In this document: piece by piece, positions 4,489 to 62,506 of the stretch
How the letters are laid out: each line of letters begins with the position of its first letter
Position numbering within the stretch: position 1 is the stretch's first letter
Origin: Polyangium mundeleinium
GTDB taxonomy: Bacteria > Myxococcota_A > Polyangia > Polyangiales > Polyangiaceae
Assembly (NCBI RefSeq): GCF_028369105.1
Contig: NZ_JAQNDO010000001.1
Span: 1,426,001 to 1,490,000 of the forward strand
Length of the DNA stretch: 64,000 nucleotides
Direction: 5' to 3'
Notes under the pieces: generated by a model
Told to the model about the DNA's origin: nothing
Database searches by the model: none
The model's input: the letters and a program-made list of their open reading frames with translations, nothing else
Program-made: the position numbers and the translations under genes

Positions 4489-5808
4489 ATGCCCGACGCA
4501 TTGATGTCGGAGAACATGTCACCGGGACTGTTGAAGGTAGCGGAAAGAGCGAGAAGGGAGCCCGAAGGACGGTTCCACGCGCTGGCCCATCTCATCGACG
4601 GGCCAGCCCTGGCACGCGCGTATCGCCGCATGCGGAAGGATGCAGCGGTGGGGGTGGATGGAGTCACGAAGGAGCAGTATGGGCTGGACCTGGAGCGCAA
4701 CCTCCAGGGCCTGCACGAACGGCTGAGGTCGAAGCGATATCGGCACCAGCCGATCCGGCGTGTCCACATCCCCAAGGACAAGGGCAAGACGAGGCCGATT
4801 GGGATATCGGCGTTCGAGGACAAACTGGTCCAGGACGCCGTGCGCGAGGTGCTCGAAGCGATCTACGAGCAGGACTTTCTGGACTGCTCGTACGGCTTCA
4901 GGCCCGGACGCAGTGCCCATGACGCCATCCGTGCCCTCGACCGGCTCGTGTACAAGGGCAAGGTGGGGTGGATTCTGGAGGCTGACATCGTGTCCTTCTT
5001 CGACAGCGTGGATCGCACCAAGCTGCTGGAGATGCTCCAGACTCGGGTGGCCGATGGGTCGCTCCTGCGGCTCATCGGCAAATGCTTGCACGTGGGTGTG
5101 CTCGACGGCGCGGAGTACTCCGAGCCGGAGATCGGCACGGCCCAGGGGTCGGTGCTCTCCCCGCTCCTGGGGAACATCTATCTGCATTACGTGCTCGACC
5201 TGTGGTTCGATCGCGAGGTCAAGCCGCGTACGCGGGGTGAGGCGCACCTCATCCGCTATGCGGATGATTTTGTGATGGTGTTCGAGCGCCAGGACGACGC
5301 GGAGCGCGTGATGGAGGTGCTCCACAAGCGGATGGGGCGATTCGGACTGACCCTTCACCCGGACAAGACTCGCCTGTTACCCTTCCAGCGGCCACCGGCC
5401 GCGCAGACGGGCGGCAAAGGTCTGGCGACGTTCGACTTCCTCGGGTTCACGCTGTACTGGCGGCGGACCTTGAGAGGTCAATGGCAAATGGCGTGCAAGA
5501 CTCGGTCTGCTCGCCTTCGACGGGCAGTCCAGTCCGTCGCCGACTGGTGCCGCCGCTATCGGCACCTGCCGGTCAAGGTGCAGCATGCCGCGCTCAAGAG
5601 GCGCATCCAAGGGCACTTCAACTACTTCGGCGTCAACGGCAATGTTCGCAGTCTGCTGTTGCTCGTCGAAGAAGCCAAGAGGGCCTGGTACAAGTGGCTC
5701 TGCCGTCGGAGCAATCGGGTGCGCCTGAATTGGGAGGGGTTCGGCGAGATGCTGAAGAGCCTGCCTCTGCCCCGTCCCCGCGTGATAGTCCGAATCTGGG
5801 GGACGTAG
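4489..5808 (+). CDS. ltrA: Group II intron reverse transcriptase/maturase
   Basis: The 439-residue protein starts at an ATG preceded by CAGGAGGG at 4477-4484. Upstream in-frame sequence belongs to the structured intron RNA, so a longer start is unlikely. RT landmarks are GVDGVTKEQY, the finger/palm region ending in CSYGFRPGRSAHDA, the catalytic YADD box in LIRYADDFVMVFE, and FDFLGFTLYWRR. A maturase (X) domain follows, with HFNYFGVNGN and RAWYKWLCRRSNR. The protein stops at VIVRIWGT, with no C-terminal HNH endonuclease, so mobility would be of the endonuclease-independent type. It binds its own intron RNA, helps splicing and reverse-transcribes it at target DNA. The intact frame suggests an active or recently active element. 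Confidence 0.95.
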   Translation: MPDALMSENMSPGLLKVAERARREPEGRFHALAHLIDGPALARAYRRMRKDAAVGVDGVTKEQYGLDLERNLQGLHERLRSKRYRHQPIRRVHIPKDKGKTRPIGISAFEDKLVQDAVREVLEAIYEQDFLDCSYGFRPGRSAHDAIRALDRLVYKGKVGWILEADIVSFFDSVDRTKLLEMLQTRVADGSLLRLIGKCLHVGVLDGAEYSEPEIGTAQGSVLSPLLGNIYLHYVLDLWFDREVKPRTRGEAHLIRYADDFVMVFERQDDAERVMEVLHKRMGRFGLTLHPDKTRLLPFQRPPAAQTGGKGLATFDFLGFTLYWRRTLRGQWQMACKTRSARLRRAVQSVADWCRRYRHLPVKVQHAALKRRIQGHFNYFGVNGNVRSLLLLVEEAKRAWYKWLCRRSNRVRLNWEGFGEMLKSLPLPRPRVIVRIWGT

Positions 5809-22844: not shown

Positions 22845-22845
22845 G

Positions 22846-24810: not shown

Positions 24811-24823
24811 GGCGACCAACTCC

Positions 24824-44422: not shown

Positions 44423-45300
44423 ATAGCGTGAAGACGGCTGCACAGAGAGAAAAACACGTCCGAAGCTTTGTCCGTGATCTGAATGCATGGTGCAAGAACC
44501 CTCGCCTCGACCAGCGAAAGAAGCTCCTCGCGGACATCGCCAAATGGATCCGAAGTGGAGAGCCACGTGCAGCTGCTGTTGCAGCCGGCATCCTGCGCCA
44601 GCTTGGGAATTGGTACGCTCAGCATGGCATGTTCGATGTACTGAACGGTAGAGTCGAGAGTTGGGCACATCTTGACCGGGTTCTCCAATATAACTGGTGG
44701 GATACTCGTATTGATCCTGGTGGAACCCATGTCCTGGATGCTGCGCATACCCTCGCGCATGCTCTTGTTTTCGGCGAGGAGCGGATGGCCGCGTGGCTTG
44801 CCGCACGGATGATCCGAAGCCTCGATGACAATGCCTTCGGTTCTTGGGATCTCAGTCCGTTCGCGGTCTTCATGCTGGAGCTATGGTACCGCTACGCTGG
44901 CACGCCTCGACCGGAGCTAGATCGCCAGGGGATTGCACGCATCGGGGTCTACCGTTCCGTGCTTGACACCTGGAATGATGGGCAGGGCTTTGTCACCGCC
45001 TTGCTGAACGCCTGTGACTACCACCTCGACGAGGCCGTGTACTCCGATGCGAACAAAGAGTTCCTGACGTCGCCCTACGATCTCTTCCCCGTCGACATCC
45101 TCGCCATCGCCGCCGTCCGCGCGAAGCAGGGCCTCCCGATGCCCGAGCTCGACCATCCCCTCATGCAGACCCCACTGGCCAAGCTCCCACCGAACGACAC
45201 CCGGCCCCGGATGCCACCCGATCCCCTGCTCGAGGCCGTGATCGAGAAGGCCCGGAAGCAGGGCTTCTTGCCGGCTGACGGAGACGTGTTCACGCCCTGA
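44419..45300 (+). CDS. Candidate immunity protein for the RHS nuclease
   Basis: A GTG overlaps the RHS stop codon (GTGA), giving 293 residues; a GTG three codons later is an alternative. The protein is soluble and mostly helical (RSFVRDLNAWCKNPRLDQRK, then WAHLDRVLQYNWWDTRIDPG and LLNACDYHLDEAVYSDANKE), with no signal or membrane segment, as expected for cytoplasmic DNase immunity. Third-position GC is lower at its start than in the RHS core. This is common where toxin-immunity ends are exchanged by recombination. The role is inferred from position; I cannot name an Imm family. Confidence 0.7.
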   Translation: MNSVKTAAQREKHVRSFVRDLNAWCKNPRLDQRKKLLADIAKWIRSGEPRAAAVAAGILRQLGNWYAQHGMFDVLNGRVESWAHLDRVLQYNWWDTRIDPGGTHVLDAAHTLAHALVFGEERMAAWLAARMIRSLDDNAFGSWDLSPFAVFMLELWYRYAGTPRPELDRQGIARIGVYRSVLDTWNDGQGFVTALLNACDYHLDEAVYSDANKEFLTSPYDLFPVDILAIAAVRAKQGLPMPELDHPLMQTPLAKLPPNDTRPRMPPDPLLEAVIEKARKQGFLPADGDVFTP

Positions 45301-45312
45301 AAGGAGATGCCC

Positions 45313-47778
45313 ATGGCAAAGGTCTCGCTCGGAACGCTGGGGACCACCGCGATGAGCATCGTGGACCGCCTGCGCGATCTCGCTGCCGGAGCCCGTCTCG
45401 ACTTCACCTTCGCCTGGGAAGGCGCTCCTGGCCCGAACCCGTGGGACCATCTCCCGGTCGTACGCTTCGCGGCCCGCGAGGCCATCTCAACCCTTTACCG
45501 CTACGACATCACCGTCCTGCTCCGCGGCCCGGGGCTCGGCGACCCAGAGGAGCTGCTCGGGGCCCGCGCCTGCCTCCGGATTGCCTCCCTCACCGATCCT
45601 GGCTTCCGCATCGTTCACGGCATCATCACCGAGGCTCAGGAGCTGGCCCTTGCCCCCGAGGGCATGCTCTATCGCGTCACCCTCGAGCCTCCGCTCGCAC
45701 TCGCGCAGCGCCGCACGCGCTCGCGCATCTTCCTCGACAAGACCCTCCGTCAGATCATCGATGCCGTCCTGGCGCCGATCTTCACCCGCGCCGACGGGGC
45801 AGCCGCCCACGGCGACGAGCATCATCCCCTCTCGTTCACCCCTGCGGCACCGCGCTTTTGCTACCGCATTACGGATGTCAGCCGCCTCGATAACCCGGCC
45901 GCCCGACCATACTGCGTCCAGTACAACGAAAGCGACCACGCGTTCCTCTCACGTATCCTCGAAGACGAGGGCATCGCCTACCACTTCGAGCACGGCTCGG
46001 ATATGTGTCTCCTCGTTCTCTCGGACGCGGACGAGGGCAAGACCTGGCTCGCCCCCTTCCGCTCCCTCGGCCCCGGAGTCCACGGTCGCGACATCACCGC
46101 AATCACGCTCGGTGCACGCCTGCGCGAGAAAGCTGTGCGACTCCTCGATTACGACTGGCGGAAGCCCAACATTGCCCTCCATGCCGAGGCCGGCACACGT
46201 GCTGACCTCTTCGAGGATCAGTTCCCAGGCGCCTTCCAGGACAAGCCCGCGCTCGGCGCGCCTCTTGCCCGTGCACGCCTCGATCGCCACGCCGTCGAGG
46301 CTTCGTACGCAACGGGCTCGGGGGGAGTCCGCGTCCTGTCCGCCGGCACGGTTTTTCACCTCGACCACGACGGCACCCATCATGATGGCGAGTACCTGGT
46401 CACGCGCCTTGAACTCGAAGCCGAGCAGGCCGGCGTGGTGTCGCTCCCTTCCGGTGACAAGCCAGAACCCTTCAAGGCGCGGTTCGAGTGCGTGCGCCGT
46501 GGGCGGGGTTCTCGGTCTTCTCCCTCGCGCTTCCGGCCCGCCCGTACCGTGCAGAAGCCCCGCATCGTGGGTTCACAGACGGCCTTCGTGACGGCCGAGC
46601 CATCGACCAAAGGCGCGGAGATACACGTCGGGGGACCACCGGGCGCCGAGATCGGCTGCGTACGCCTGCGCTTTCATTGGGACCACGATCCGGAGCGTCA
46701 CGGTGCAGAGCCGACGTCCTGCTGGGTCCGCGTCAGCCACGCCTTTGCAGGCGCAGGTCGGGGCGCATTGTTCCATCCGCGCGTCGATGACGAAGTGGTC
46801 GTCGAGTTTCTCGATGGCGACCCCGACCGACCCATCGTCACCGGCTGCGTCTACAACGGCCAGAACCTCCCCCCAGCGCCAGCCAGCGGGTCACCGACCG
46901 TGAGTACAATGAAGTCCTTCTCCACGCCGGGTGCTGGTGTGGTCAACGAGTTTGCCTTCGACGATGCGAAGGGACGCGAGCGAGTTGTGTTGAATGCCGG
47001 CCGCGACTTCTGCGCGACCGTCGGCCATGACAGGGCCGAGAAGGTCACGAACGACAGCAATTCGAGGGTTGGTGTGAACCGGAGCGAGCGTACGGGCTCG
47101 AACCGGAGCACAGATGTCGGTGGGAACAACGCGGAGCATGTCGCGGGAAACGAGACCATCGCAGTCGACGGCAACCAAAACACAACCATCGGGTCGAATC
47201 GTTCCGCGACGGTCGGTGCGGACGACAGCCTCAGCGTCGCCGCCAACAGAACCGCCATCGTGGGTGCAAGCGATGCTCTCAACGTCGCGGCGGCCCAGCG
47301 CATTCAGGTAGGCGCTGATCAGACGGTAGATATCGGCGGGAGCCGCGCGGAGACCGTCGCAGGCAGTGCGAGTCTCGTCGTCGCAGGCAGCCGTTCCATT
47401 GCCGTCGCAGGTAGCGACGAGCAGAGCATTGCAGGTAGCCGGACGGTTGCCATCGGAGGCAGCGTGCTCGAGGCCATTGGGGCCGCGTTCCTGCGCAGCA
47501 TCGCAGCCAGCGCAGAGGGTGCGGTGGGCGCGGATGCCTCGCTGGCAACCGGCGGCACGGTCAACGTCCAAGCCGGAGGGAGCGTGGTTGTCGTCGCGCA
47601 GGGAGAGGCGGCCATACAGGCGCCCCTCATCAACCTGACGGCCGACGGGGAGATCGTGCTCAGCGCGGGCGGCAGCGCGATCAAGATCGGCGCCGGAGGT
47701 GTCGAGATCATGGGCCCCTCCGTGTCGGTTGCCGGTGGCACGGTCAATGTTGCCGGGGGACTGGTCAAGCTCAACTGA
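45313..47778 (+). CDS. vgrG: VgrG, type VI secretion spike
   Basis: The second of two nearby ATGs is chosen because AAGGAG at 45301-45306 gives it proper spacing. The 821-residue protein has the gp27-like base (RYDITVLLRGPGLGDPEELL; FVSRILEDEGIAYHF-type block with the typical AFLSRILEDEGIAYHFEHGS), the gp5 OB fold (EIGCVRLRFHWDHDPERHGA, then SCWVRVSHAFAGAGRGALFH and VDDEVVVEFLDGDPDRPIVT). A long beta-helix follows, of short repeats rich in G-x-N/S and V-x-V (residues about 575-780). It ends with no extra effector domain, so cargo is probably the PAAR-RHS protein encoded just upstream. Confidence 0.95.
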   Translation: MAKVSLGTLGTTAMSIVDRLRDLAAGARLDFTFAWEGAPGPNPWDHLPVVRFAAREAISTLYRYDITVLLRGPGLGDPEELLGARACLRIASLTDPGFRIVHGIITEAQELALAPEGMLYRVTLEPPLALAQRRTRSRIFLDKTLRQIIDAVLAPIFTRADGAAAHGDEHHPLSFTPAAPRFCYRITDVSRLDNPAARPYCVQYNESDHAFLSRILEDEGIAYHFEHGSDMCLLVLSDADEGKTWLAPFRSLGPGVHGRDITAITLGARLREKAVRLLDYDWRKPNIALHAEAGTRADLFEDQFPGAFQDKPALGAPLARARLDRHAVEASYATGSGGVRVLSAGTVFHLDHDGTHHDGEYLVTRLELEAEQAGVVSLPSGDKPEPFKARFECVRRGRGSRSSPSRFRPARTVQKPRIVGSQTAFVTAEPSTKGAEIHVGGPPGAEIGCVRLRFHWDHDPERHGAEPTSCWVRVSHAFAGAGRGALFHPRVDDEVVVEFLDGDPDRPIVTGCVYNGQNLPPAPASGSPTVSTMKSFSTPGAGVVNEFAFDDAKGRERVVLNAGRDFCATVGHDRAEKVTNDSNSRVGVNRSERTGSNRSTDVGGNNAEHVAGNETIAVDGNQNTTIGSNRSATVGADDSLSVAANRTAIVGASDALNVAAAQRIQVGADQTVDIGGSRAETVAGSASLVVAGSRSIAVAGSDEQSIAGSRTVAIGGSVLEAIGAAFLRSIAASAEGAVGADASLATGGTVNVQAGGSVVVVAQGEAAIQAPLINLTADGEIVLSAGGSAIKIGAGGVEIMGPSVSVAGGTVNVAGGLVKLN

Positions 47779-47790
47779 AGGGAGGGACCC

Positions 47791-48780
47791 ATGGATCCGG
47801 TATCCGCTGCAGCGCATCGTTTCGTCTCGGAGATAGCTGAATTCTTATGCGCCGAACGGGTGCGAAGCCTTCGGATCGTGGCGGAGCCAGACCGATACCG
47901 GGAGGTCATCAAGGCGCTGCGGCTGCTCGAGCACGCGCCCGACAACCGGCGCCCGTTCTTTCTCTTCGACGAGCCCTTCGAGGACGCACATCGCTACTTC
48001 ACCGCGCTCACGCAGGCGATCACCACGCAATACGAGCAGCTCCGCGGGGGCATAGGTGCCGAGGGCATCGAGCTGCCCCGCCTCGGGCCCTTGCCGCCCG
48101 GAGATGCGTCCCACCGTGCTGCCGTTGCACTGGCCCACGTGGCGGAGTTCTTGGCGCCCCATCTCGACGGCGTGCTCGTGGGTCTCCTGCCCCGACACGT
48201 GTCTGATGGGCCAGGGTTTCTCGCAGCCGTACAGGCATGGCTGCGGCTGCCTTTCCCGCCCGGCGTGCGGTGTGCCGTGCTCGATGAGTCTCGGTCCGTG
48301 AAGAACCTCGACGCCGAGGCGCGGTTTATCGTCCCCGAGGGGCCGTTGTTCGGGTTCGTGAACGCGCTGCCTGCAGAAGCAGCGATGCAGCCTCTCCGCG
48401 CCGCGCTCCTCTCCGCGGCGCAGGCATCGGCAACCAGGGAGCCCCAGGCGGCGACGGGAGCGTACGAGGACGCGGTCGAGCTTTGCCGCGGGCGTGGGCT
48501 CGCGCGGGAGCTTGGAGGGGTGTTGATGGCGCTCGGGGCCGCTGCGCTCGCCAGAGGGGCCCAAGAGGATGCTCGGCGGCGGTTCACGGAGGCCGCGCTC
48601 CATGCAGAGTGTACTGGGCTCCCAGCCCAGGCGGCGGCGGCGTGGATGGCTGTTGGGTCACTCGCGGCGGCCGTCGGCCTGCAGGAGGTGGCGGACAAGG
48701 CGCTCGAGGCCGCCCGCGCCGCGGCCGAGCGCGGGGGGATCGCATCGCTACGGGAGCACGTCGAGCGATTGCACAGTTGA
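47791..48780 (+). CDS. VgrG-linked helical accessory protein
   Basis: ATG with GAGGGAC upstream, 12 bases after vgrG. The 329-residue protein has an alpha/beta N-terminal half (FLFDEPFEDAHRYFTALTQA, then LAPHLDGVLVGLLPRHVSDG) and a C-terminal half of TPR-like helix pairs (ATGAYEDAVELCRGRGLARE, then RRRFTEAALHAECTGLPAQA). Position directly after vgrG suggests an adaptor or chaperone that loads the effector. No known adaptor family (DUF4123, DUF1795, DUF2169) is evident. Confidence 0.65.
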   Translation: MDPVSAAAHRFVSEIAEFLCAERVRSLRIVAEPDRYREVIKALRLLEHAPDNRRPFFLFDEPFEDAHRYFTALTQAITTQYEQLRGGIGAEGIELPRLGPLPPGDASHRAAVALAHVAEFLAPHLDGVLVGLLPRHVSDGPGFLAAVQAWLRLPFPPGVRCAVLDESRSVKNLDAEARFIVPEGPLFGFVNALPAEAAMQPLRAALLSAAQASATREPQAATGAYEDAVELCRGRGLARELGGVLMALGAAALARGAQEDARRRFTEAALHAECTGLPAQAAAAWMAVGSLAAAVGLQEVADKALEAARAAAERGGIASLREHVERLHS

Positions 48781-48917
48781 TCGCGCGTCCCGGCGCCGAC
48801 GTCTACTACATGTTCGGGGAGGACGACGATGAGTGGGTGCTGCGGGCCAATAACCGCGAGGAGATGGCGCTGAGCCGCGAGCGATGGGGGCTCGCGTTCA
48901 CGTACGGCGAGGCGTGA
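48777..48917 (+). CDS. Possible 46-aa acidic protein after the accessory gene
   Basis: A TTG overlaps the previous stop (TTGA) and opens IARPGADVYYMFGEDDDEWV, continuing to AFTYGEA. Composition is protein-like and the overlap implies coupling. An internal ATG at 48810 is an alternative start. Function unknown. Confidence 0.4.
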   Translation: MIARPGADVYYMFGEDDDEWVLRANNREEMALSRERWGLAFTYGEA

Positions 48918-49254: not shown

Positions 49255-49944
49255 TCACCGACAAGTTCGTCCTCCGCAAACATTCGTCACGTCGCGGGAT
49301 AAGAACAATGGTGCGACCAGGCAAGTCTGGTCCGAAAGGAATGAGATGCGATAAACTCATGAAATTCGGTTTGCCGTCCGGCGGGTGCGATCCCCGCCCG
49401 GCCAAGGGTGGCCCGCCCAGGCCGGTAGCGAGCCTTGCGACGGTCACGGTAACGCGGCCGGCGATGCGTAGGTGCGCGAGCGTGCGGGCCGTGGGGAATG
49501 CAGCCACGAAAATTATAATCATTCCGGGGGCCGAGGGCGTCATTGCACCCGAAGGCGACGGTGAACTTCCCAGAAGTGGGCAAGGGAAGGGCACTCCCGG
49601 CGGGGTGTACGACCACGGCACGTAGGAAGGGGACGGTCCAGAGACCTGGGAGACCCGCGTTCCTCTTCGGGAACAACCGGTGCCACGGAGACCCGGTGAT
49701 CAATCTCCGACGCGCCGCGCGCTTGCGGATACGCGCGCGGCCGGCCGAAGCCATGCTCGTGGCTCTGCACAGAAGAAGTATTCGCACCGAGGTAGGCAGC
49801 AGGCAAGGGACAACCGGAGCCGATGCCGACGGGAACGCGGGAGTCGGAGGGCTGAATACGAGCGATGACGTCGGGGAACGGGGTAGCGCCCGGACCCGGC
49901 CGAGCAAAGGCAGCCCGTGTTGGTGTGAACTTCAGGAGGGAACC

Positions 49945-51264
49945 ATGCCCGACGCATTGATGTCGGAGAACATGTCACCGGGACTGTTGAAGGTAGCGGA
50001 AAGAGCGAGAAGGGAGCCCGAAGGACGGTTCCACGCGCTGGCCCATCTCATCGACGGGCCAGCCCTGGCACGCGCGTATCGCCGCATGCGGAAGGATGCA
50101 GCGGTGGGGGTGGATGGAGTCACGAAGGAGCAGTATGGGCTGGACCTGGAGCGCAACCTCCAGGGCCTGCACGAACGGCTGAGGTCGAAGCGATATCGGC
50201 ACCAGCCGATCCGGCGTGTCCACATCCCCAAGGACAAGGGCAAGACGAGGCCGATTGGGATATCGGCGTTCGAGGACAAACTGGTCCAGGACGCCGTGCG
50301 CGAGGTGCTCGAAGCGATCTACGAGCAGGACTTTCTGGACTGCTCGTACGGCTTCAGGCCCGGACGCAGTGCCCATGACGCCATCCGTGCCCTCGACCGG
50401 CTCGTGTACAAGGGCAAGGTGGGGTGGATTCTGGAGGCTGACATCGTGTCCTTCTTCGACAGCGTGGATCGCACCAAGCTGCTGGAGATGCTCCAGACTC
50501 GGGTGGCCGATGGGTCGCTCCTGCGGCTCATCGGCAAATGCTTGCACGTGGGTGTGCTCGACGGCGCGGAGTACTCCGAGCCGGAGATCGGCACGGCCCA
50601 GGGGTCGGTGCTCTCCCCGCTCCTGGGGAACATCTATCTGCATTACGTGCTCGACCTGTGGTTCGATCGCGAGGTCAAGCCGCGTACGCGGGGTGAGGCG
50701 CACCTCATCCGCTATGCGGATGATTTTGTGATGGTGTTCGAGCGCCAGGACGACGCGGAGCGCGTGATGGAGGTGCTCCACAAGCGGATGGGGCGATTCG
50801 GACTGACCCTTCACCCGGACAAGACTCGCCTGTTACCCTTCCAGCGGCCACCGGCCGCGCAGACGGGCGGCAAAGGTCTGGCGACGTTCGACTTCCTCGG
50901 GTTCACGCTGTACTGGCGGCGGACCTTGAGAGGTCAATGGCAAATGGCGTGCAAGACTCGGTCTGCTCGCCTTCGACGGGCAGTCCAGTCCGTCGCCGAC
51001 TGGTGCCGCCGCTATCGGCACCTGCCGGTCAAGGTGCAGCATGCCGCGCTCAAGAGGCGCATCCAAGGGCACTTCAACTACTTCGGCGTCAACGGCAATG
51101 TTCGCAGTCTGCTGTTGCTCGTCGAAGAAGCCAAGAGGGCCTGGTACAAGTGGCTCTGCCGTCGGAGCAATCGGGTGCGCCTGAATTGGGAGGGGTTCGG
51201 CGAGATGCTGAAGAGCCTGCCTCTGCCCCGTCCCCGCGTGATAGTCCGAATCTGGGGGACGTAG
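49945..51264 (+). CDS. ltrA: Group II intron reverse transcriptase/maturase, copy 2
   Basis: Identical in sequence to the reverse transcriptase of copy 1 (439 aa, YADD catalytic box, X domain, no HNH domain), with the same CAGGAGGG ribosome-binding site. Lack of divergence indicates recent transposition or gene conversion between the copies. Both copies should be functional if either is. Confidence 0.95.
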   Translation: MPDALMSENMSPGLLKVAERARREPEGRFHALAHLIDGPALARAYRRMRKDAAVGVDGVTKEQYGLDLERNLQGLHERLRSKRYRHQPIRRVHIPKDKGKTRPIGISAFEDKLVQDAVREVLEAIYEQDFLDCSYGFRPGRSAHDAIRALDRLVYKGKVGWILEADIVSFFDSVDRTKLLEMLQTRVADGSLLRLIGKCLHVGVLDGAEYSEPEIGTAQGSVLSPLLGNIYLHYVLDLWFDREVKPRTRGEAHLIRYADDFVMVFERQDDAERVMEVLHKRMGRFGLTLHPDKTRLLPFQRPPAAQTGGKGLATFDFLGFTLYWRRTLRGQWQMACKTRSARLRRAVQSVADWCRRYRHLPVKVQHAALKRRIQGHFNYFGVNGNVRSLLLLVEEAKRAWYKWLCRRSNRVRLNWEGFGEMLKSLPLPRPRVIVRIWGT

Positions 51265-51360: not shown

Positions 51361-51464
51361 AGGAGAACTCCTCATCATCGTTGAAACGTCTCCGCGCCCG
51401 CGTGGCGCGCGTTCTGCGCGTCACGGGGCAAGGGCCTCCGTGTGCGCGCTCCATGGAGGACCCC

Positions 51465-52238
51465 GTGACGACCACGATTCCGAGGAACATTCGCCAGGAG
51501 TTCGAGAAGAAGATCAGGCGCGGCATCTTCAACCCCGTCGCGCGCTTCCTGCACGAGAACATCCGTGAGGATCGGATGCAGGAAGCGCTCGGCTTTACCT
51601 GGGCGCTCTACAAGAAGCATGCCGAGGTGGGTGACATCCTCGACGATGCCCTGCTCGTGCATGCCTGCCGTCTACGCGCCATTGATCTAAGCCGCCATCT
51701 CGCCTCCGGCGATCGGACCCAGCGGCTGAAGGACGTCTTCGACCAGCGCAACTACAACCGCCGCCGCGTCGAGGTCCTGGGCCTCGACGAGTACGTGGCG
51801 GAGTTCGAGGACAACCCGCAGATCGACAACCAGGAGTCGAACACGGATATCGGCAGGGCACGGCCCCGCAGCCTGAACCCGACGGGTCGTATTATCAGCG
51901 CCATCAGCTTGAACGAATGGCTCGAGACGCTGGCCCCGCGGGACCGCCAGCTCATCGAGCTGCGCGCCGCCGGGCACGACCTCGACGAGATCGGCACTGC
52001 GCTCGGCATGGACAGGGTCGCCGTCTGCCGCAGGGTCAAGGTGCTCGGCGAGCTCCTGGCCGAGCACGCCGGCATGCCGGATGCTGTCCATCGCAGGCAG
52101 CTCAAGCGCGCAAAGGCGAGCGAGGAGCCGGCACCGGAGAGCGGCATCCGGGCGAAGGTGACGAGGGGCAGGCCCAAGAAGTCGGTGGCGTCTCAGCAGT
52201 CGCACAAGCCGTCTCGGCGAGCGCGGCAAGCGGCTTGA
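51465..52238 (+). CDS. Sigma-70 region-4-like phage regulator
   Basis: The GTG at 51465 has GGAGGA five bases upstream; an ATG at 51453 is an alternative. The 257-residue protein has an N-terminal helical part resembling sigma region 2 (GDILDDALLVHACRLRAIDL) and a clear region-4-type HTH (LAPRDRQLIELRAAGHDLDE, then IGTALGMDRVAVCRRVKVLG). The C-terminus is basic and rich in Lys/Arg/Ser (TRGRPKKSVASQQSHKPSRR). It probably activates or regulates genes of the mobile element. Intron copy 2 lies in its leader. Confidence 0.7.
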   Translation: MTTTIPRNIRQEFEKKIRRGIFNPVARFLHENIREDRMQEALGFTWALYKKHAEVGDILDDALLVHACRLRAIDLSRHLASGDRTQRLKDVFDQRNYNRRRVEVLGLDEYVAEFEDNPQIDNQESNTDIGRARPRSLNPTGRIISAISLNEWLETLAPRDRQLIELRAAGHDLDEIGTALGMDRVAVCRRVKVLGELLAEHAGMPDAVHRRQLKRAKASEEPAPESGIRAKVTRGRPKKSVASQQSHKPSRRARQAA

Positions 52239-54710: not shown

Positions 54711-55877
54711 CTATGCGACGGAGCGGAACAGCCCCCTCCTATGTCGCTCATCGAGCTCCCTGATTGTCTTCGGATTCTCCTGCACGTACTCGAAAAAGTG
54801 CCTGTTGAACACGGCGGCCCCTTCCTCGGTCAGTCGGTAGACTTCAGCATCTACGTGCTCTCCGGGAACCACCTCACGCACCGCATAGCGAGGGTCGTGC
54901 CGCAGATCAATCCCGTGCTTCTCGAGGCTCCAGGTCACCACGCGGCCGATTCGTTGACGGCTGACACCATAGTAGCGGGCCAGCGAAGAGATCGAGATCT
55001 GACCGTCGCCATCAAGATCTTGGGGCGGATAGAAGCCCGCCGGCTGCGGCGGGTGCTGAGGAGCGCGTACAATGCCCGGAAGCCCCCCGGGAGATAGGCG
55101 ACCAGAGAGCCGACCCAGAGGCCGCGGGGCTGGCGCCGGAGGTGATGGCAGGGCTGGCTCGGTCACTTTGGGAGCCATAGACTCGATCACCTCCTGCACG
55201 GGCTTGGGAGGTGCCTCCGCCGGCTCGGGTAGCACAGCGACAGGGACCGCCCTCGCGGAGGGCAGGGCAGACTTCTTCGGCGACATCAGGAGCGCTCCAG
55301 CCGCTTCCAGGTAGCCCTCGATGCGACTGGATGACATCCCCACCTGCTGCGCCACCTGAGCGAGCTGCAGAAGCAACCACGCGCGTCCCGAGGGGTTGTC
55401 GGCCAGCAGGAGAGCCGCCACCTTCGGATCGAGGAGCTGCGGCCGGTCGGGAGCCGCCGGCACCGAAGTGCCCGGGATGCTCTCTCCGCGCCGCAGCTTC
55501 GGCAGAACTTCATCGGCTAGGAGGCGACGAAGCTTCTTGCCGAGCTCCTTGTCAGTCTTCAGGGCGACGAGGTCCACGCCGCTCTCGTAGAGGACCATCA
55601 AGCTACGCGCCCGACTAGCTACGCCACTGGTTCCGCGATGCGGAACCAGTCGCTTGAACGCCTTCAAATCTTGCCCTTCGAGGACGTCGTAGTCCCGCCC
55701 TTCGATGAACTCGTCCTTCCACTCGTCGAGAATGCGCTTGGTCAGGCCCTTCTCTGCGTACCCCAGCGCCGCCCCCAGCTCGGCAGTGATCACGGCGACC
55801 CTACCTCGGAACACGCGAAACGTGAGGGACTTTCCTTCGAACATCGCGTCGTACTTCATGAGCTTATCGCTATTCAT
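54711..55877 (-). CDS. Bro-N/KilA-like phage regulatory protein
   Basis: The ATG at 55877 overlaps the upstream stop (ATGA). The 388-residue product has a Bro-N-type domain at about 10-130: FEGKSLTFRVFRGRVAVITA, ELGAALGYAEKGLTKRILDE, EGRDYDVLEGQDLKAFKRL, SLMVLYESGVDLVALKTDK. A proline-rich linker leads to a C-terminal wHTH-like domain (ISISSLARYYGVSRQRIGRV, then TEEGAAVFNRHFFEYVQENP). Such proteins act as antirepressors or lytic regulators in phages. It is translated with an RHH protein from one promoter. Confidence 0.75.
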   Translation of the reverse strand: MNSDKLMKYDAMFEGKSLTFRVFRGRVAVITAELGAALGYAEKGLTKRILDEWKDEFIEGRDYDVLEGQDLKAFKRLVPHRGTSGVASRARSLMVLYESGVDLVALKTDKELGKKLRRLLADEVLPKLRRGESIPGTSVPAAPDRPQLLDPKVAALLLADNPSGRAWLLLQLAQVAQQVGMSSSRIEGYLEAAGALLMSPKKSALPSARAVPVAVLPEPAEAPPKPVQEVIESMAPKVTEPALPSPPAPAPRPLGRLSGRLSPGGLPGIVRAPQHPPQPAGFYPPQDLDGDGQISISSLARYYGVSRQRIGRVVTWSLEKHGIDLRHDPRYAVREVVPGEHVDAEVYRLTEEGAAVFNRHFFEYVQENPKTIRELDERHRRGLFRSVA

Positions 55878-56092
55878 GTGGCCTTCTCCTTCCTGCTTCC
55901 GATTCTGCGCTCGTAGAGTTCCCTCAGCGCGACCCGCATCACGCGTGCACGGTTGCCCTCGAATTCCCCGAGCACGGCGAGCTCTCCGAGCTTCTTGTCG
56001 TCCTCTGGGGTGATCTTGGGCTGAATGACGGGTCCTCCGATGACCTTCGGCCGCCCCGGTCGTCGGCCAGTGCGTCTTCGACTGCTGGACAT
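55874..56092 (-). CDS. Small RHH-like regulator
   Basis: 72 residues: a basic arm (SSSRRRTGRRPGRPKVIGGP), then IQPKITPEDDKKLGELAVLG and NRARVMRVALRELYERRIGS, compatible with an RHH or small helical DNA-binding fold. It is the first gene of a two-gene unit and lies 14 bases from a palindromic operator. Confidence 0.65.
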   Translation of the reverse strand: MSSSRRRTGRRPGRPKVIGGPVIQPKITPEDDKKLGELAVLGEFEGNRARVMRVALRELYERRIGSRKEKAT

Positions 56093-56106
56093 CGAACCCT
56101 CCTTTC

Positions 56107-56130
56107 AACGTATATTAACAATATCGTTGT
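56107..56130. promoter_or_regulatory. AT-rich palindromic operator
   Basis: CAACGTATATT and AATATCGTTG flank AAC in a nearly perfect palindrome, strongly AT-rich against the local background. It is just upstream of the RHH/Bro-N unit, and the symmetry suggests binding by a dimeric regulator, probably the RHH protein. TATATT could also serve as part of a -10 element. Confidence 0.65.
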
Positions 56131-57100: not shown

Positions 57101-60100
57101 CTACTTCTCCCAGCGCGACATCACCTTGGGCTCGACCACAATCGGCACCGAGGGCACGTACTTCTTCATCCCGGCGATCATGCTGTCGCGCATGAGCACC
57201 TTGACCTCCTCAGCATGTTCTTCGGGAGCTTCAACGAGCAGCTCGTCATGCACCGCGAGGATCATCTGCGCCCCGAGCCGCTTGAGGTGCGGGGCGAGAA
57301 GCACCATCGCCTGCTTCATGCCATCGGCCGCAGTGCCCTGAATGGGAAAGGCCAGGCGCGCGTTGTAATCCTCGGCGGGGTCAAAGTAGTACGAGACCCG
57401 GCCGCTCTTCGTGCGTAGCTCGGCCGGCATCTCCTCGGCCATCTTCTTCTGCCACGCCGCGACCCCTGCGTGGTTCTGCAAGAACATCTGCTTGAACTGC
57501 GCCGCCTGCTCTGGCCTGAGGTCCACCTTGTAGTTCTTCTTCGCGTACGCGATGAGCTTGTTCACGCCCATCCCGAACGAGCCCCCGAAGTTCACGGGCT
57601 TTGCCCGGTTGCGCTGCTCGTCGGTGACCTGGTTCTCGGGCACGTTCATCAACAGGGATGCCGTGTGGCGATGCGGGTCTCCATCGCTCTTCCCGAAAAC
57701 CTCCTTGAGCTTCTCGTCCCCTGTCTGATCCGCGAGCACGCGCAGCTCGATCGCGTTGTAATCCCCGACGACGAGCTTCTTGCCTGCGGGAGCCTGGATG
57801 CACGAGCGCACCTGCTTGTCGCGCGGCAGGCCGAGCAGGTTGGGCTCTTGCGCGCTGAGCCTGCCAGTCACGGCGCCGATCTGGTTCAACGTCGCATGCA
57901 CGCGCCCGTCCTCGGAACGGCTGAAGGCCCGCAGCACGCCGTTGCCGGCACCCGTGACGAAGCCGTTATTGCGCCGGTAGAGGACGAGCTGCTGGGCTAC
58001 TGGCAGATGCATGTACGGCGCGAGGGCCTCGCTGTTCGTGCGCTCGACCTGGAGACCGAGCCGATGCAAAGCCGCGAGGACTTCCTCGTTGTTATCGATG
58101 TTCTTCACGCCCAGTGTGGCGACAAGGTTCTTCTCGAGTTCCGCGGCTTCGCTCGTCCACATGTCGACGAGCCGCTCCCATTCGACTCGGTTGATGGGTA
58201 CACCGCTCACCTCCATCTGCGCGACGATGGGGAGAAGCTTGAATTCGAGCGCGGCTACTTCTTCGAGACGCTCTTCTTGGAGATCCTTCTGGAAGATGTC
58301 CGCGAGGCGCAGGACATCCCGCGCCTCTTCCGCGAGCTCATCCCGTAGCTCGGGGCTCGGCGCGGTCGACCAATCGATGTTCTTTTGGACAATCTGCTTG
58401 CCGAGCGCGCGCTCGAGGGAGAAGTACTTGTGGTTCTTGAGGTGCCTGCCGCCGTCGAGCAGCCGCCACGCGATGGCCGTATCCACCACCGTGCCTGGCA
58501 TGAAGCCGAGGTGGTACTGAAACTGCGCGAGCGCGCCCTTGAGGTCGTGGCCGACGATCGTCACCTGGCAGAGGGCATCGGCGACAGGGCCGAGTTCCTC
58601 ACCACCGAGCGTGTGGAACACCCGCGCCTGTCCATCTGGCAGGGCGAGGGCGACGAGGACAGGTCCCTCGGTAATGTCGGGGCCCGTCGAATGGACGACC
58701 AGGCCGACGCGCCCGGCGCGGAGGATGGCTTCCGCCAGGGTGCCCGGCCCGGCTCGATCAGATGTCTGCTCGGCTTGACCAGATCCCTGGAGGCCCTCGG
58801 GGGAGCGAGAACGCCGCGAAAACGAGGCTCCTTGCCCGGCTTGACCAGATGACCAGATCTTTTCGGAGGGGAGAGGCGCCCCCGACAGGGACGGGGATAC
58901 AGACCCAAGCCTCGCAACATCGGCGCTCACAGAGGGACTCTCCCCCCTGAAAGATCTGGTCATCTGGTCAGAGTGAGGTTGATTACCTGTCCGTGCCTGC
59001 ATATCCCCTGGATCTGCTGGGGTTTTGCCATCCCCGGGCCCTTCGCACCCGTGCCCGGATCGATCTGGACACGAACCGGGCATCTGGACAGCCAGCACCG
59101 GCGAAGGGGGCAAGCTCGCTATCGTGAGGGGCGCAGAGCCGTTCATGTTCTCCGCCGGGCTCCGGATGGGACGCCAGAGCGAGGGGAGATCAAGCCCGTC
59201 ATCACCCCCCTCGCACAGCGCCCCGCCGTCATCGTCGGGACCAGGCTCGCCACCACCAGGACCGGGCCCTCCGTCACCCGACCCGTCCGGGTCCGGCTCG
59301 CCCCGCAGCTTGGTCAGGTCGATCTTCAGCACGCGCTCCCGCTTGCGGTCCCCATCGACATCGAGCCGGTGCGTGGGCTCCTTCCCGTTCGGGAGAATGA
59401 GCCCCTCTTCGACCATGCGGCTCCAGAGGCCGTACTGCTGGAGCGGCGTGCCTTCGTTCATCGACTTCAACGCCTTGTTGACCGCCTCGAAGGCGGCGTC
59501 GGGCAGGAGGTAGGCGTGCGTCTTGTCCTTCCAGCCCACAGGCTCCGTGCCGTCGCTGCTGGCCGACGTCAGCGGCATCCCCATCGACTGCAACGTCACC
59601 TTGCGCCGGAGCAGCAGATCGCGCAGCACCTCCAGGAAGCGATGGCCGGGGTTCGACTGCTCCGTCGCTCGCACCTGCTCGCGATAGTTCGCGAGGAGCG
59701 CCGCTCGGGCCTCATCGATGTAGCCCTTGGCATCCTCGTCGCTCATGACGCCGAGGTCCTTGGCGAACTCAGTGAAGTAGTACGCGCCGACGAGCAGGTG
59801 CGCCATCGCGGCCGGGGCGCGGAGATGGCCGTACTTCTGCTGCATCTCGTCACGGAGCTCCTGGAACTTCTTCTTCACCTCGACCTCGAGCTGCGGCATC
59901 TGCGGGATAAGCCACTCGACGTACGCAGCCATCGCGTGCGGCAGACGATGGGCGTTGGCTTGAAGCCTCGTCAGTGCGTCGAGGTTGATGTCCTCTTTCG
60001 ACATGTGAATGGCGACGAGCCGCGCCTGAATCGACTCTCCTTTCGGCAGGTCTTCGCCCGTGCTCAGCACGAGCGCTCGGCAGGGGCGATCAGGACGCGC

Positions 60101-61906
60101 GGTGCAATCCGACTTGAGGCGACCACGCGAGCTCCCATTCCCGACATGGCGAACGAGCTGGGCGCCCTTCTTGTGAGTCTCGTCCGTGGCGTCGGCACTC
60201 TTCGGCGCGAAGTCGTCAATCGTGACGAGCGCGTCCTTCATCCGGTGGAGGTACAGCTCGATCGCGCTGAACGTCCAGCCCCAGCTCAGGGGCAGCGATG
60301 CGTGATCGAATTCTCCCCAGTGGCTCTGCGCGAGCGCGGCCAGCGAACTCTTCATGCTGCCGCTCTTGCCGTGCAGCATGAGCACCGCGTCGAAGTAATG
60401 CGAGCTTTGAAGCGGCGCTCGATAGACCGCGCAGAGCAAAGGCAACGTGACACGTGTGTCGGCGGTCTTGAGGAAGTCGAGCGAGATCTTCACCGCTTCC
60501 CGGGGATCCTCCGCGAACGCGGGCAGCTTATAGCGGCGATACGCGGCTTCGAGCTCAATCGAGACATCGTGCGCTCCCACGGCACCGCCGGCATGCAGAT
60601 AGATCCACCGGCCGCCATGGTCTCGAAAACCCGAGTGCATGTACGTCACGGTCTCCGTCGGACTCGACACTGTCTGGATTGCAGCGCGGAGGTGGCTCGC
60701 CACCCTGGGGATGCCGGGGTAGACGATCGGCTTCGCGCCCCACTTCTGGCTCGGCCACAGCTCGCCCCCGAGCTCTTGCGGGCTCACACGCACGCGCGAC
60801 AGGGGAACTCCGGTCTCGAGCGCGCCCTCGATGACGAAGGCACGCGTCTTCTCGGCGCCGTCGTCCAAGATCTCCTCCTCGACGATGTGGGCCGTGAAGT
60901 TGCCTAGGGGCTGGCAGTTCTCCGTCACGCCTCCGTCCGGCGAGCTCACCAAGCAGAGCTTCTCGCGGCGAACAGCGTAGAACGCGCCGGCCGGCGTCTC
61001 CTCTTCATGAATTCTCCGGTTCTTGGCCTTCTGCTCGGCCTCGTACAGGGCGCGCTGAAGATCCCTCTCCCTGACGCCGTGCGGGCGCAACAGCGTCATG
61101 ACCTTCTTTTGCGTGGCGACGCCGCGCTCCGTGAGCGACCACAAGAACGGCAAGTCGCCCAGGAGGTTCACGGCCTGCTCGGCCGAGATGTTCTTCACCC
61201 GCTCGACCGGATCGGCGGGCACATCCGCGGCCAGCACCCTACGAAGGTCGACGTACCCGTTCGAGGCGCGGAAGTCGTCCGGCCCTTGATCTTCACCGTC
61301 ATCGCGCAGCGGCAGCGCCGCCACCTTCACCTTGGCGCCGTGCTGCTCGAGCGCGATGGCCAGCCGAGCTTCCGCTCGCGCGACGTCAGGGTTCAGCGCC
61401 CGGCCCGCATCGAACGTGATGACGACCTCGCGCCGGACGAGGCCCACCACGTTCCACGAGTCATTGAGCTTGTGGTCCTTCGTGAGCGTCGAGTAGATCC
61501 CGCCGAGCCCGATAGCATTGAAGCCGTTGTCCTGGAGGACCAGCGCCTTGCCCGGCGACTCGACAACGTAGAGCGGCGCGGAGCCCTCGAACTCGCACCC
61601 CGGCGGGATGAAGATGGGGACCTCCCGCCCGGCCGGGGCGAGGTAGCGAGGTTTGCCCTCGTCGAGCCGGATCCGCACATATCCCGGCGCGTTGGGGTAT
61701 GGGATCGCGATCCCGCCACAGGGAAGCGGCTGGTCCCGACCGAGCAGCCTCACGCCCACGTCCGGCGAGACGGACCGCAGACCGGCCTCGGCGGCCCAAT
61801 CTGGGACGACGGCGCGGTGCTCCAGGTACTGGATGTGATGGGGCTCGAAGGGCAGCACCTGTGCGCCCCCTGTATTGGTTTCCGTAGAAGCGCATGCTAG
61901 ATTCAT
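57101..61906 (-). CDS. Fused TOPRIM-primase, DUF927-like ATPase and family A DNA polymerase
   Basis: The ATG at 61906 has AGGAGGTG five bases upstream; 1,601 residues. About 20-230: DUF3854/TOPRIM-like part (LYVVESPGKALVLQDNGFNA, then VVITFDAGRALNPDV). About 400-680: DUF927-like SF3/AAA module with SGFRDHGGRWIYLHAGGAVG, Walker A LMLHGKSGSMKSSLAALAQS and Walker B DALVTIDDFAP. About 860-1,070: Gly/Pro/Ser-rich linker. About 1,075-1,230: 3'-5' exonuclease-like fold, GHDLKGALAQF and VVDTAIAWRLLDGG, with motif I lacking its acidic pair. About 1,240-1,601: polymerase with motif A VVGDYNAIELRVLADQTGD, motif B RAKPVNFGGSFGMG and motif C ILAVHDELLVEAP. One chain could prime, unwind and copy DNA for an element's replication. 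It follows a MerR-like gene by 65 bases. Confidence 0.9.
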   Translation of the reverse strand: MNLACASTETNTGGAQVLPFEPHHIQYLEHRAVVPDWAAEAGLRSVSPDVGVRLLGRDQPLPCGGIAIPYPNAPGYVRIRLDEGKPRYLAPAGREVPIFIPPGCEFEGSAPLYVVESPGKALVLQDNGFNAIGLGGIYSTLTKDHKLNDSWNVVGLVRREVVITFDAGRALNPDVARAEARLAIALEQHGAKVKVAALPLRDDGEDQGPDDFRASNGYVDLRRVLAADVPADPVERVKNISAEQAVNLLGDLPFLWSLTERGVATQKKVMTLLRPHGVRERDLQRALYEAEQKAKNRRIHEEETPAGAFYAVRREKLCLVSSPDGGVTENCQPLGNFTAHIVEEEILDDGAEKTRAFVIEGALETGVPLSRVRVSPQELGGELWPSQKWGAKPIVYPGIPRVASHLRAAIQTVSSPTETVTYMHSGFRDHGGRWIYLHAGGAVGAHDVSIELEAAYRRYKLPAFAEDPREAVKISLDFLKTADTRVTLPLLCAVYRAPLQSSHYFDAVLMLHGKSGSMKSSLAALAQSHWGEFDHASLPLSWGWTFSAIELYLHRMKDALVTIDDFAPKSADATDETHKKGAQLVRHVGNGSSRGRLKSDCTARPDRPCRALVLSTGEDLPKGESIQARLVAIHMSKEDINLDALTRLQANAHRLPHAMAAYVEWLIPQMPQLEVEVKKKFQELRDEMQQKYGHLRAPAAMAHLLVGAYYFTEFAKDLGVMSDEDAKGYIDEARAALLANYREQVRATEQSNPGHRFLEVLRDLLLRRKVTLQSMGMPLTSASSDGTEPVGWKDKTHAYLLPDAAFEAVNKALKSMNEGTPLQQYGLWSRMVEEGLILPNGKEPTHRLDVDGDRKRERVLKIDLTKLRGEPDPDGSGDGGPGPGGGEPGPDDDGGALCEGGDDGLDLPSLWRPIRSPAENMNGSAPLTIASLPPSPVLAVQMPGSCPDRSGHGCEGPGDGKTPADPGDMQARTGNQPHSDQMTRSFRGESPSVSADVARLGSVSPSLSGAPLPSEKIWSSGQAGQGASFSRRSRSPEGLQGSGQAEQTSDRAGPGTLAEAILRAGRVGLVVHSTGPDITEGPVLVALALPDGQARVFHTLGGEELGPVADALCQVTIVGHDLKGALAQFQYHLGFMPGTVVDTAIAWRLLDGGRHLKNHKYFSLERALGKQIVQKNIDWSTAPSPELRDELAEEARDVLRLADIFQKDLQEERLEEVAALEFKLLPIVAQMEVSGVPINRVEWERLVDMWTSEAAELEKNLVATLGVKNIDNNEEVLAALHRLGLQVERTNSEALAPYMHLPVAQQLVLYRRNNGFVTGAGNGVLRAFSRSEDGRVHATLNQIGAVTGRLSAQEPNLLGLPRDKQVRSCIQAPAGKKLVVGDYNAIELRVLADQTGDEKLKEVFGKSDGDPHRHTASLLMNVPENQVTDEQRNRAKPVNFGGSFGMGVNKLIAYAKKNYKVDLRPEQAAQFKQMFLQNHAGVAAWQKKMAEEMPAELRTKSGRVSYYFDPAEDYNARLAFPIQGTAADGMKQAMVLLAPHLKRLGAQMILAVHDELLVEAPEEHAEEVKVLMRDSMIAGMKKYVPSVPIVVEPKVMSRWEK
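58771..58969. repeat. GACCAGAT repeat cluster with 20-bp inverted repeat
   Basis: CGGCTTGACCAGAT occurs at 58771-58784 and 58837-58850. A 20-base arm at 58843-58862 (GACCAGATGACCAGATCTTT) is perfectly inverted at 58950-58969, 87 bp away. All lie in the low-complexity linker codons of the polymerase fusion. Iteron-like 8-mers plus an inverted repeat could mark a replication origin or regulator site; codon-level duplication of a linker is the alternative. Confidence 0.6.
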
Positions 61907-61971
61907 GTTCACCTCCTGGACGGCTCCTTCCGCGGCTTCGCAGACCAAGCGGATGGAGCCGTTCTCCTTTT

Positions 61972-62436
61972 TCAACGATCCTTCTTATTCTTCCGGCTCT
62001 GCGGCTCCGTGTTCGCGATGCGCTCGATACGGCGGAGCACACGCTCTGCGGCAGGGCCGAGGTCCACGAGGTGGCTCACGCAGCGCTCGCTGGAGCCCGG
62101 GGCCGCGTTCTTCTTCGTCTTGTCAAACAAGACGACCTCTTGACCATCGGTCCAGATGGCCACGTTCACGAGCTCGTGGAGCTCGGGGAACCCGTGGCCC
62201 CGCTGCACGTAGCGCAAGGCTCCGACCATCGTCCGCACGCGGATGCCTGCCCTCAAGATCTCCCGCGCGAGCCGCAGCGCGAGCAGATCTCGGGCCGTGA
62301 ACCGACGCGGCGAGCCGCGCCCCTGACCACCTCCGGCGCTGGGCTTCAAGAGCCCGCTCCGAAGAATCTCATCCAGCTTCTTATAACGCAGCCCGGAGAC
62401 CCGGACCGCGTCGCCTGCCGTGAATGTAGTATCCAT
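61972..62436 (-). CDS. MerR-like regulator
   Basis: ATG at 62436, 154 residues. The N-terminal HTH reads VRVSGLRYKKLDEILRSGLL, then SPRRFTARDLLALRLAREIL and AGIRVRTMVGALRYVQRG, the MerR-type helix-turn-helix and wing. The C-terminal part has VAIWTDGQEVVLFDKTKK and no metal-binding cysteine cluster, so it resembles the phage/plasmid MerR-like group. It precedes the replication gene in the same direction and probably controls it. Confidence 0.75.
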   Translation of the reverse strand: MDTTFTAGDAVRVSGLRYKKLDEILRSGLLKPSAGGGQGRGSPRRFTARDLLALRLAREILRAGIRVRTMVGALRYVQRGHGFPELHELVNVAIWTDGQEVVLFDKTKKNAAPGSSERCVSHLVDLGPAAERVLRRIERIANTEPQSRKNKKDR

Positions 62437-62506
62437 GGCTTGGCATTCCATCACGTGGGATCCGAGAAAGGGAAGCGCACCCCCTTCTACAAGTCTTCAC
62501 GGCACA

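Follow-up and report, generated by a model that had tools for sequence, protein, structure and literature searches.

Here we describe a 1,601-aa fusion protein encoded in a 64,000-nucleotide stretch of the Polyangium mundeleinium genome (contig NZ_JAQNDO010000001.1, positions 1,426,001 to 1,490,000; hereafter, the window), in which a primase-like domain, an initiator-type helicase domain, an exonuclease-like domain and a family A DNA polymerase follow one another in a single chain. The gene occupies positions 57101..61906 on the minus strand, stop codon included, and was delineated from its open frame and translation and from full-length homologues. The unbroken frame and perfect Shine-Dalgarno (SD) sequence described in an earlier note, made from the letters alone, proved exact in frame, length and coordinates, with AGGAGG (61912..61917, minus) placed 5 nt ahead of the ATG at 61904-61906; AAGGAG or AGGAG is read at the corresponding place in the related loci L033 and L034. 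Three Pfam families match over their curated cut-offs, namely DUF3854 (residues 109-217, expectation value (E) 2.8e-9), DUF927 (507-605, 3.7e-6) and DNA_pol_A (1247-1600, 6.4e-61). In NCBIfam, the bifunctional 3'-5' exonuclease/DNA polymerase PRK14975 scores best (3e-103, under its equivalog cut-off), ahead of the DNA polymerase I models, and the PHROGs matches are phrog_17 (DNA polymerase, 5e-85) and phrog_1139 (DNA primase, over residues 492-694, 1e-8).

The first module is a DnaG/T7 gp4-like primase-core domain (Toprim, DUF3854) at residues 17-289 (61040..61858, minus), recognized by its Pfam match, its fold and an hhalign comparison. AlphaFold2 models were built from the window and database-locus sequences, with a mean predicted local distance difference test score (pLDDT) of 84 for residues 1-865 and 90 for residues 1055-1601. 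The N-terminal model (7-289) aligned with the DnaG primases of Aquifex (Z-score (Z) 16.1, root-mean-square deviation (rmsd) 6.5, 260 aligned residues) and B. subtilis (Z 15.4, rmsd 6.0, 244 aligned), as well as with T7 gp4 (Z 14.9, rmsd 3.1, 179 aligned), and hhalign paired the Toprim core with E. coli DnaG at E 4e-6 and Prob 87. DUF3854 is also found paired with DUF5906 or VapE-like ATPases (L060, L061, and L071) and occurs in none of 14 control genomes. In L071, a relative that is not fused to a polymerase, the listed matches of the DUF3854 domain include plasmid replication proteins that carry the annotation CyRepA1, at 38-43% over a portion of the core, and a query with the Toprim part of the viral DUF3854-like protein L040 gave no plasmid match.

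The second module, assigned from the Pfam match and from its fold, is a DUF927 AAA+ initiator-type helicase domain at residues 308-865 (59312..60985, minus). Its model resembles the Rep initiator of the staphylococcal pathogenicity island SaPIBov1 (8tch; Z 23.5, rmsd 6.9, 455 aligned) and the Cch helicase of the staphylococcal cassette chromosome mec (SCCmec; 5dgk; Z 21.8, rmsd 7.1, 459 aligned), and in the structure search it also matched MCM AAA+ folds; by sequence only, the N-terminal profile matches Cch weakly (E 0.012). The Walker A and B motifs that the earlier note had placed in a DUF927-like middle are confirmed by alignment: Walker A reads GKSGSMKSS (residues 513-521; 60344..60370, minus), Walker B ends in IDD (residues 560-565; 60212..60229, minus), and residues G513, G516, K519, I563, D564 and D565 are invariant in 7/7 aligned proteins. 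The possibility, raised in the same note, that the two N-terminal modules bear no relationship to primase or superfamily 3 helicase proteins is contradicted by their fold kinship with primases and replicative helicases. Among viral models, the Foldseek matches include phage proteins whose names contain DUF927 or Toprim; the 21st-ranked match (E 2.5e-10) is a 'DNA polymerase I [uncultured virus]' that may be a polyprotein of the 3173 type.

DUF927-type domains were also encountered in other settings. The DUF927 part of L034 matches proteins annotated as telomere-binding on Rhodococcus plasmids that we take to be linear (e.g., NC_005073.1 near 8.7 kb), near the record ends in many rows; Rhodococcus accounts for 22 of the 56 matching plasmid records, with 27-29% identity in the rows listed. 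Three Myxococcota proteins of ~1,140-1,180 aa (L080, L093, and L094) align with the profile only in its DUF927 part (position 270 or 281 onward), and the N-terminus of two of them resembles, by eye, the primase/Rep type. A DUF927-type protein from a faecal phage record (L057, MT838026), which is cut at its start, is 31-32% identical to the helicase part; its frame lacks a polymerase, and both a Toprim-like end and a following frame resembling a single-stranded DNA-binding protein (SSB) were recognized by eye.

Behind the helicase, the low-complexity linker of about 200 residues mentioned in the earlier note measures ~189 residues (866-1054; 58745..59311, minus), is rich in glycine, serine and proline, and was delimited by composition and by substitution rates. 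It leads to a 3'-5' exonuclease-like domain (residues 1055-1200; 58307..58744, minus), which that note had overlooked and which alignment with the E. coli and cyanobacterial plasmid PolA proteins shows to have lost its catalytic residues, and then to the family A DNA polymerase domain (residues 1201-1601; 57101..58306, minus), assigned by Pfam and by fold. The model of residues 1055-1601 aligned with Plasmodium apPol (Z 37.7, rmsd 2.7, 498 aligned), the Klenow fragment (Z 37.1, rmsd 3.4, 530 aligned) and Aquifex pyrophilus Pol (Z 35.9, rmsd 2.9, 522 aligned). Motifs A, B and C are complete, as first noted, with D1382, R1432, K1436, F1440, H1553, D1554 and E1555 invariant in 7/7 aligned proteins. 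The O-helix tyrosine of the E. coli, cyanobacterial plasmid, Aquifex and Prex enzymes is replaced by F, N or L in 12/12 family rows.

Proofreading residues are lost in the window protein, where the DxE positions hold V1070 and H1072 and the ExoII Asp position holds A1125. The DxE pair is V/A and H/R/L in 9/12 rows (the window protein, L033, L034, L035, L036, L037, L038, L069, and L039) and is kept in L066, L067 and L068; L067 and L068 also retain the ExoII Asp, which is replaced by Glu in L066 and lost in the other nine. Pfam recognizes the exonuclease in L068 (7e-26) and L067 (1.5e-22), reports it under the cut-off (0.0075-0.037) in four exo-dead proteins (L033, L036, L037, and L039), and finds none in the window protein up to E 0.1. 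In the polymerase tree, the nine exo-dead rows form one clade (100/100) with L066, L067 and L068 branching outside, and the simplest reading would be a single loss of the exonuclease site in that branch.

The search for proteins with the same domain order, proposed as a check in the earlier note, yielded 11 different proteins with the fusion, each ~1,600 aa long, in nine Myxococcota genomes, counting L034/L065, L036/L063, L037/L062 and L038/L064 as one locus each. The genome of P. mundeleinium itself (13.25 Mb, two contigs) holds a second full-length copy, 66% identical, and the other hosts include Polyangium fumosum (two), Polyangium sp. 15x6 and Sorangium cellulosum So0157-2. Among 59 chosen relative genomes, its own included, 58 were matched, mostly by the presumed host polymerase, and five encode the fused protein, at seven places (one of which was reported as two pieces of one frame). 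An N-terminal alignment scan of genome contigs confirmed 10 of 124 candidate stretches, eight of them polymerase-fused and two (L070 and L071) not. Seven of the 11 proteins, with the starts adopted here, span 1,571-1,631 aa. In 377 genomes sampled evenly across the phylum, the N-terminal profile had a match in 19 and a full-length match in four (frames of 1,592-1,691 aa). Among phage and plasmid records, 2,855 and 156, respectively, had any match, and none of either covered 80% of the query. Three scans of viral contigs with P0001, A2 and the Aquifex polymerase piece as queries returned 1, 2 and 15 loci and no fused relatives, frames having been examined in 9 of the 15; in the last of these scans, which was aimed at a virus contig of the 3173 type, the eight match frames found are stand-alone polymerases of 583-740 aa.

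Ratios of nonsynonymous to synonymous substitution rates (dN/dS) were calculated with our own script for six segments of five protein pairs. They lie between 0.04 and 0.58 in the primase-like, helicase, exonuclease and polymerase segments and between 0.36 and 0.68 in the linker where measurable (synonymous changes are saturated in the P0001/L036 linker), and every measurable segment falls below 1. Taken with the recurrence of the full-length frame, these values indicate that the fusion is real, conserved and selected. Identity is unevenly spread along the chain: the window protein shares 94% of its polymerase and 48% of its helicase segment with L033, L033 shares 95% of its helicase and 61% of its Toprim segment with L034, and the window protein and L036 are 97% identical over the last 71 residues and 50% identical over the remaining polymerase. 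L039, a paralogue in genome G001, joins the same exonuclease-polymerase part to a different N-terminus without a Pfam match. As judged from these alignments, the fusion copies are mosaics.

Nine loci were chosen to represent host polymerases in a phylogenetic tree, eight of which gave rows, L019 being lost at the motif filter. The 12 family rows, L039 among them, cluster as a single group (100/100) and stand, together with six cyanobacterial plasmid exonuclease-polymerases and one phage polymerase (L096), apart from the eight host-type PolA proteins and E. coli PolA. In a second tree, to which Aquifex and Prex were added and from which four long-branch phage rows were omitted, the host group was again separate (100/100), and both the family-cyanobacterial link and the placement of Aquifex and Prex were poorly supported (60/58). 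An origin from the host polA gene is rejected by the polymerase tree, and an exclusive grouping of the family with Aquifex and Prex was dropped for lack of support (60/58); by sequence, the top PDB matches of the polymerase are Aquifex pyrophilus Pol and, second, Prex.

A tyrosine integrase gene lies beyond the window at genome positions 1496421-1497497, and ~390 bp past it the sequence matches the 3' half of tRNA-Arg(CCT). A genus-wide DNA comparison found a copy of the tRNA-Arg(CCT) 3' stretch, 98% identical over 55 bp and in the same orientation, at 1408174, after an exact k-mer search for attachment repeats within the fetched neighborhoods had found none. Because it lies between these 55-bp tRNA repeats, with the tyrosine integrase at one end, the window gene appears to belong to an island of ~90 kb. 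Between this island and the intact tRNA-Arg(CCT) gene at about 1555795-1555870 lies another apparent island (G000:C1:1497890-1555870), which has a tyrosine integrase of its own. At two other loci, a tyrosine integrase gene comes after the fusion gene, with tRNA-Phe (L067) or tRNA-Ala (L068) next, and at L066, a serine recombinase gene lies downstream.

The gene next upstream encodes a MerR-like helix-turn-helix protein (61972..62454, minus; MerR_1 E 1.7e-4, slightly over the cut-off) and ends 65 bp ahead of the fusion gene, with which it probably forms one operon; of 10 other loci compared, 6 likewise have a MerR-like homologue ahead of the fusion gene. A weak candidate for a phage-type antirepressor gene (Bro-N E 0.09, under the cut-off) occupies 54711..56108 (minus) within the apparent island, and the second locus of the same genome carries a P22_AR_N protein on the corresponding side. 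A sigma-factor-like gene (51381..52238, plus; TIGR02937 E 1.2e-6, under the cut-off) recurs downstream of the fusion gene, with homologues in 5 of the 10 other loci. Very large frames (about 2,400-3,100 aa), which we take to resemble insecticidal-toxin-complex genes, recur beside the fusion gene at L034, L035, L036, L037 and the second own-genome copy.

Farther away, the window contains a Gabija-type pair (20937-24819, minus), in which the UvrD-like GajB (PADLOC E 9e-189) adjoins the OLD-type ATPase-Toprim protein GajA (E 4e-212), and genes for BREX-type BrxHI and PglZ (PADLOC E 0 and 1e-237) lie beyond the window in the same apparent island (L140:6448-11282; genome 1418448-1423282). Two group II intron copies with equal Rfam scores (3932-4159 and 49388-49615) carry reverse-transcriptase-like frames (4087-5808 and 49543-51264), with near-identical pieces elsewhere in the genome. 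The region 40373-47778 (plus) encodes a VgrG-type protein and a 1,349-aa protein with RHS repeats, whose PAAR match is weak and under the cut-off, and positions 44000-48797 share 97% identity with a G003 contig, this genome being taken as P. fumosum. A 739-aa DUF5131 protein, presumably phage Gp37/Gp68-like, is encoded between the integrase and the fusion gene (L041:4489-6708, minus).

We propose that the fusion protein is probably both the replication initiator and the replicase of an integrative mobile element, every activity in this scheme being deduced from sequence and predicted structure. The element would be excised as a circle, and the Rep/Cch-like AAA+ part would load itself at the element origin and unwind the DNA, a role suggested by its intact ATPase motifs and its Rep/Cch fold. 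The N-terminal, DnaG-like domain would bind the unwound strand and lay or position a primer, which the tethered family A polymerase, with its polymerase site intact and its proofreading dead, would extend with strand displacement, the flexible linker holding it at the fork. Clamp, SSB and ligase would presumably be borrowed from the host. The proposal draws on the fold matches, on the invariant ATPase and polymerase residues and the low dN/dS of the folded segments, on the recombinase genes downstream at L066, L067 and L068, on the tRNA repeats and integrase around the window gene, on the separation of the polymerase from host PolA, on the CyRepA1 matches of L071 and on the homology of Cch to self-loading initiators. 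Alternatively, since half of the catalytic acids are gone, the DnaG-like domain may merely hold the template, and either host DnaG or the polymerase would prime.

Several observations weigh against the initiator-replicase proposal, and priming is its weakest step. In the hhalign alignment, E116, D166 and D210 pair with DnaG acids, and K120, G168 and G208 stand at DnaG D269, D311 and D345 (we assume the E. coli numbering and the catalytic role of these acids), so that three of six are kept; the Toprim 'DxD' position reads D166-A-G168 (61403..61411, minus), its second Asp gone. The three remaining acids are invariant in 13/13 aligned rows, and an Asp at the second DxD position is present in 0/13; for comparison, the motif reads DSD in the viral DUF3854-like L040, DQD in two CyRepA1 proteins from cyanobacteria and DYE in another cyanobacterial DUF3854 protein. 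An N-terminal zinc-binding domain was not found either, the first 110 residues containing three lone cysteines (5, 63, and 104) and no CxxC pair. Priming is uncertain because of the incomplete acid set; what the earlier note called a 'TOPRIM-like primase' has the DnaG-type primase-core fold and lacks both the full set of metal-binding acids and the zinc domain of DnaG-type primases. The left boundary of the island is deduced from a single repeat of 55 bp. Two further sites in the genome carry shorter stretches of the tRNA sequence (44 bp at 95% and 27 bp at 100%), and 40-50-bp copies are found at many places in the five other genomes of the genus. The island contains many unrelated genes, so that mobility of its own is presumed. 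Origin iterons were sought beside the window gene, L067, L068, L069 and L033, and only short, mostly two-copy repeat families were seen, with one three-copy family upstream of L067. The earlier description of a self-contained priming, unwinding and copying enzyme of a mobile element is supported in part, by the fold kinship with primases and helicases and by the apparent integrase-bearing island; priming is not established, and 'self-contained' goes too far, as clamp, SSB and origin were not identified.

A less probable but still serious alternative is that the protein is a polyprotein, split by a protease or by an internal start in the linker into a primase-helicase half and an exonuclease-polymerase half, as for Prex, which is described as proteolytically processed in the available text of PMC7689252. 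The long low-complexity linker is compatible with such a split, and in three of five pairs its dN/dS exceeds that of all other segments, L033/L034 being an exception (exonuclease 0.57, last polymerase segment 0.43, linker 0.36). Moreover, helicase and polymerase are adjacent separate genes in a Microbacterium phage and a cyanobacterial plasmid; in pAL20118a, a gene with archaeo-eukaryotic primase-like and DnaB-type helicase domains ends one base before the polymerase gene start. However, the seven scanned linkers share no internal start with an SD-like sequence (weak GGAG or GAGG sequences differ between clades, and two of the seven linkers have none), and the fusion is kept in 11 proteins.

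It is rather unlikely, though conceivable, that the Toprim domain serves as a non-catalytic template clamp and the proofreading-dead polymerase primes and copies alone, which would make the protein a single-chain, self-loading initiator-replicase and would provide integrative islands with a primase-independent, error-prone replication system whose modules are exchanged by recombination. We consider it more doubtful still that the protein is a lesion-bypass, repair or defense enzyme carried as island cargo. The dead proofreading site and the Gabija and BREX-type genes in the same apparent island would fit such a role, but these genes lie tens of kilobases away, the domains are akin to replication initiators, primases and plasmid replication proteins, and the fusion recurs beside different recombinases in different elements. 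A decaying pseudogene, or two genes joined by an assembly or frame error, as might be suspected from the half-degenerate Toprim site and dead exonuclease site, is practically excluded because 11 distinct intact fused frames occur in nine genomes, with dN/dS below 0.6 in the folded segments of five pairs and below 1 in every measurable segment.

Comparison with known systems places the protein closest to two single-chain replicases. The PolA polyprotein of 'Pyrovirus', or OS3173 (TOSV), was reportedly treated by Schoenfeld in 2013. As far as the available descriptions go, it is likewise one chain of nearly equal length, with N-terminal primase/helicase-like motifs and DUF927 followed by a 3'-5' exonuclease and a family A polymerase; in contrast, it is viral and thermophilic, and proofreading by 3173 Pol is verified, whereas the myxobacterial proteins are chromosomal and their exonuclease site is dead in 8 of 11. 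The arrangement of DUF927 upstream of exonuclease and PolA in one chain is present in the window protein according to Pfam and the models; coding by a lytic tailed virus is not matched by this chromosomal gene, a systematic search for phage structural genes not having been made. Plasmodium Prex, the replication polyprotein of the apicoplast, shares the primase-helicase-exonuclease-polymerase order in one chain (the window primase by fold only) and provides the best structural match to the polymerase (Z 37.7). It differs in its helicase, which is of the T7/Twinkle type, while the window helicase is a DUF927 AAA+ domain (Pfam; Rep/Cch and MCM folds), not a RecA-type one; the exonuclease site is lost in the window protein.

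Other systems share single modules. SCCmec Cch and SaPIBov1 Rep are mobile-element initiators with the same helicase fold (Z 21.8 and 23.5) but are separate genes, and their solved chains lack a matching Toprim or polymerase part; according to PMC7581432, Cch is homologous to the SaPI Rep initiator helicases, which load themselves, and CCPol requires MP for priming, and Cch, CCPol-MP and DUF927 helicases are described there and in PMC10061031. The SCCmec CCPol-MP pair resembles the fusion in partnering a family A polymerase with a mobile-element helicase, but its parts are separate subunits. CyRepA1 shares DUF3854; according to the available portion of PMC10079941, CyRepA has a C-terminal DEXD helicase in place of DUF927 and a polymerase is not described there, and DQD is kept in the two CyRepA1 proteins examined.

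The earlier remark that these modules are usually separate genes overstated the novelty, given that the OS3173 polyprotein and Prex are already published (PMC7689252, PMC10423840). PMC7689252 describes an OS3173 polyprotein of 1,606 aa with DUF927, exonuclease and PolA, points to comparable additional polA genes of other bacteria as well as to Prex, and names DUF927 and COG5519 without mention of DUF3854. Among the papers listed by our searches of an open-licence library, we found neither a DUF3854-DUF927-exonuclease-PolA version in Myxococcota islands nor a paper combining Polyangium, DNA polymerase, primase and mobile genetic element, or Gabija, mobile genetic element and Polyangium. The 2023 review PMC10423840, in the part available, limits the N-terminal DUF927 helicase of the 3173 group to viral enzymes; the myxobacterial proteins, if they belong to that group, contrast with this statement. 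The rows with proofreading kept (3/12) and lost (9/12) form a natural series usable for testing what proofreading costs or gains a mobile element, and the fusion offers a candidate for a strand-displacing polymerase with its own helicase attached. The all-in-one DUF927-PolA kind is already known; what is new is its bacterial DUF3854-DUF927-exonuclease-PolA variant in Myxococcota islands, through which the range of such replicases, beyond the uncultured viruses of hot springs, comes to include chromosomal islands in soil bacteria that can be cultivated.

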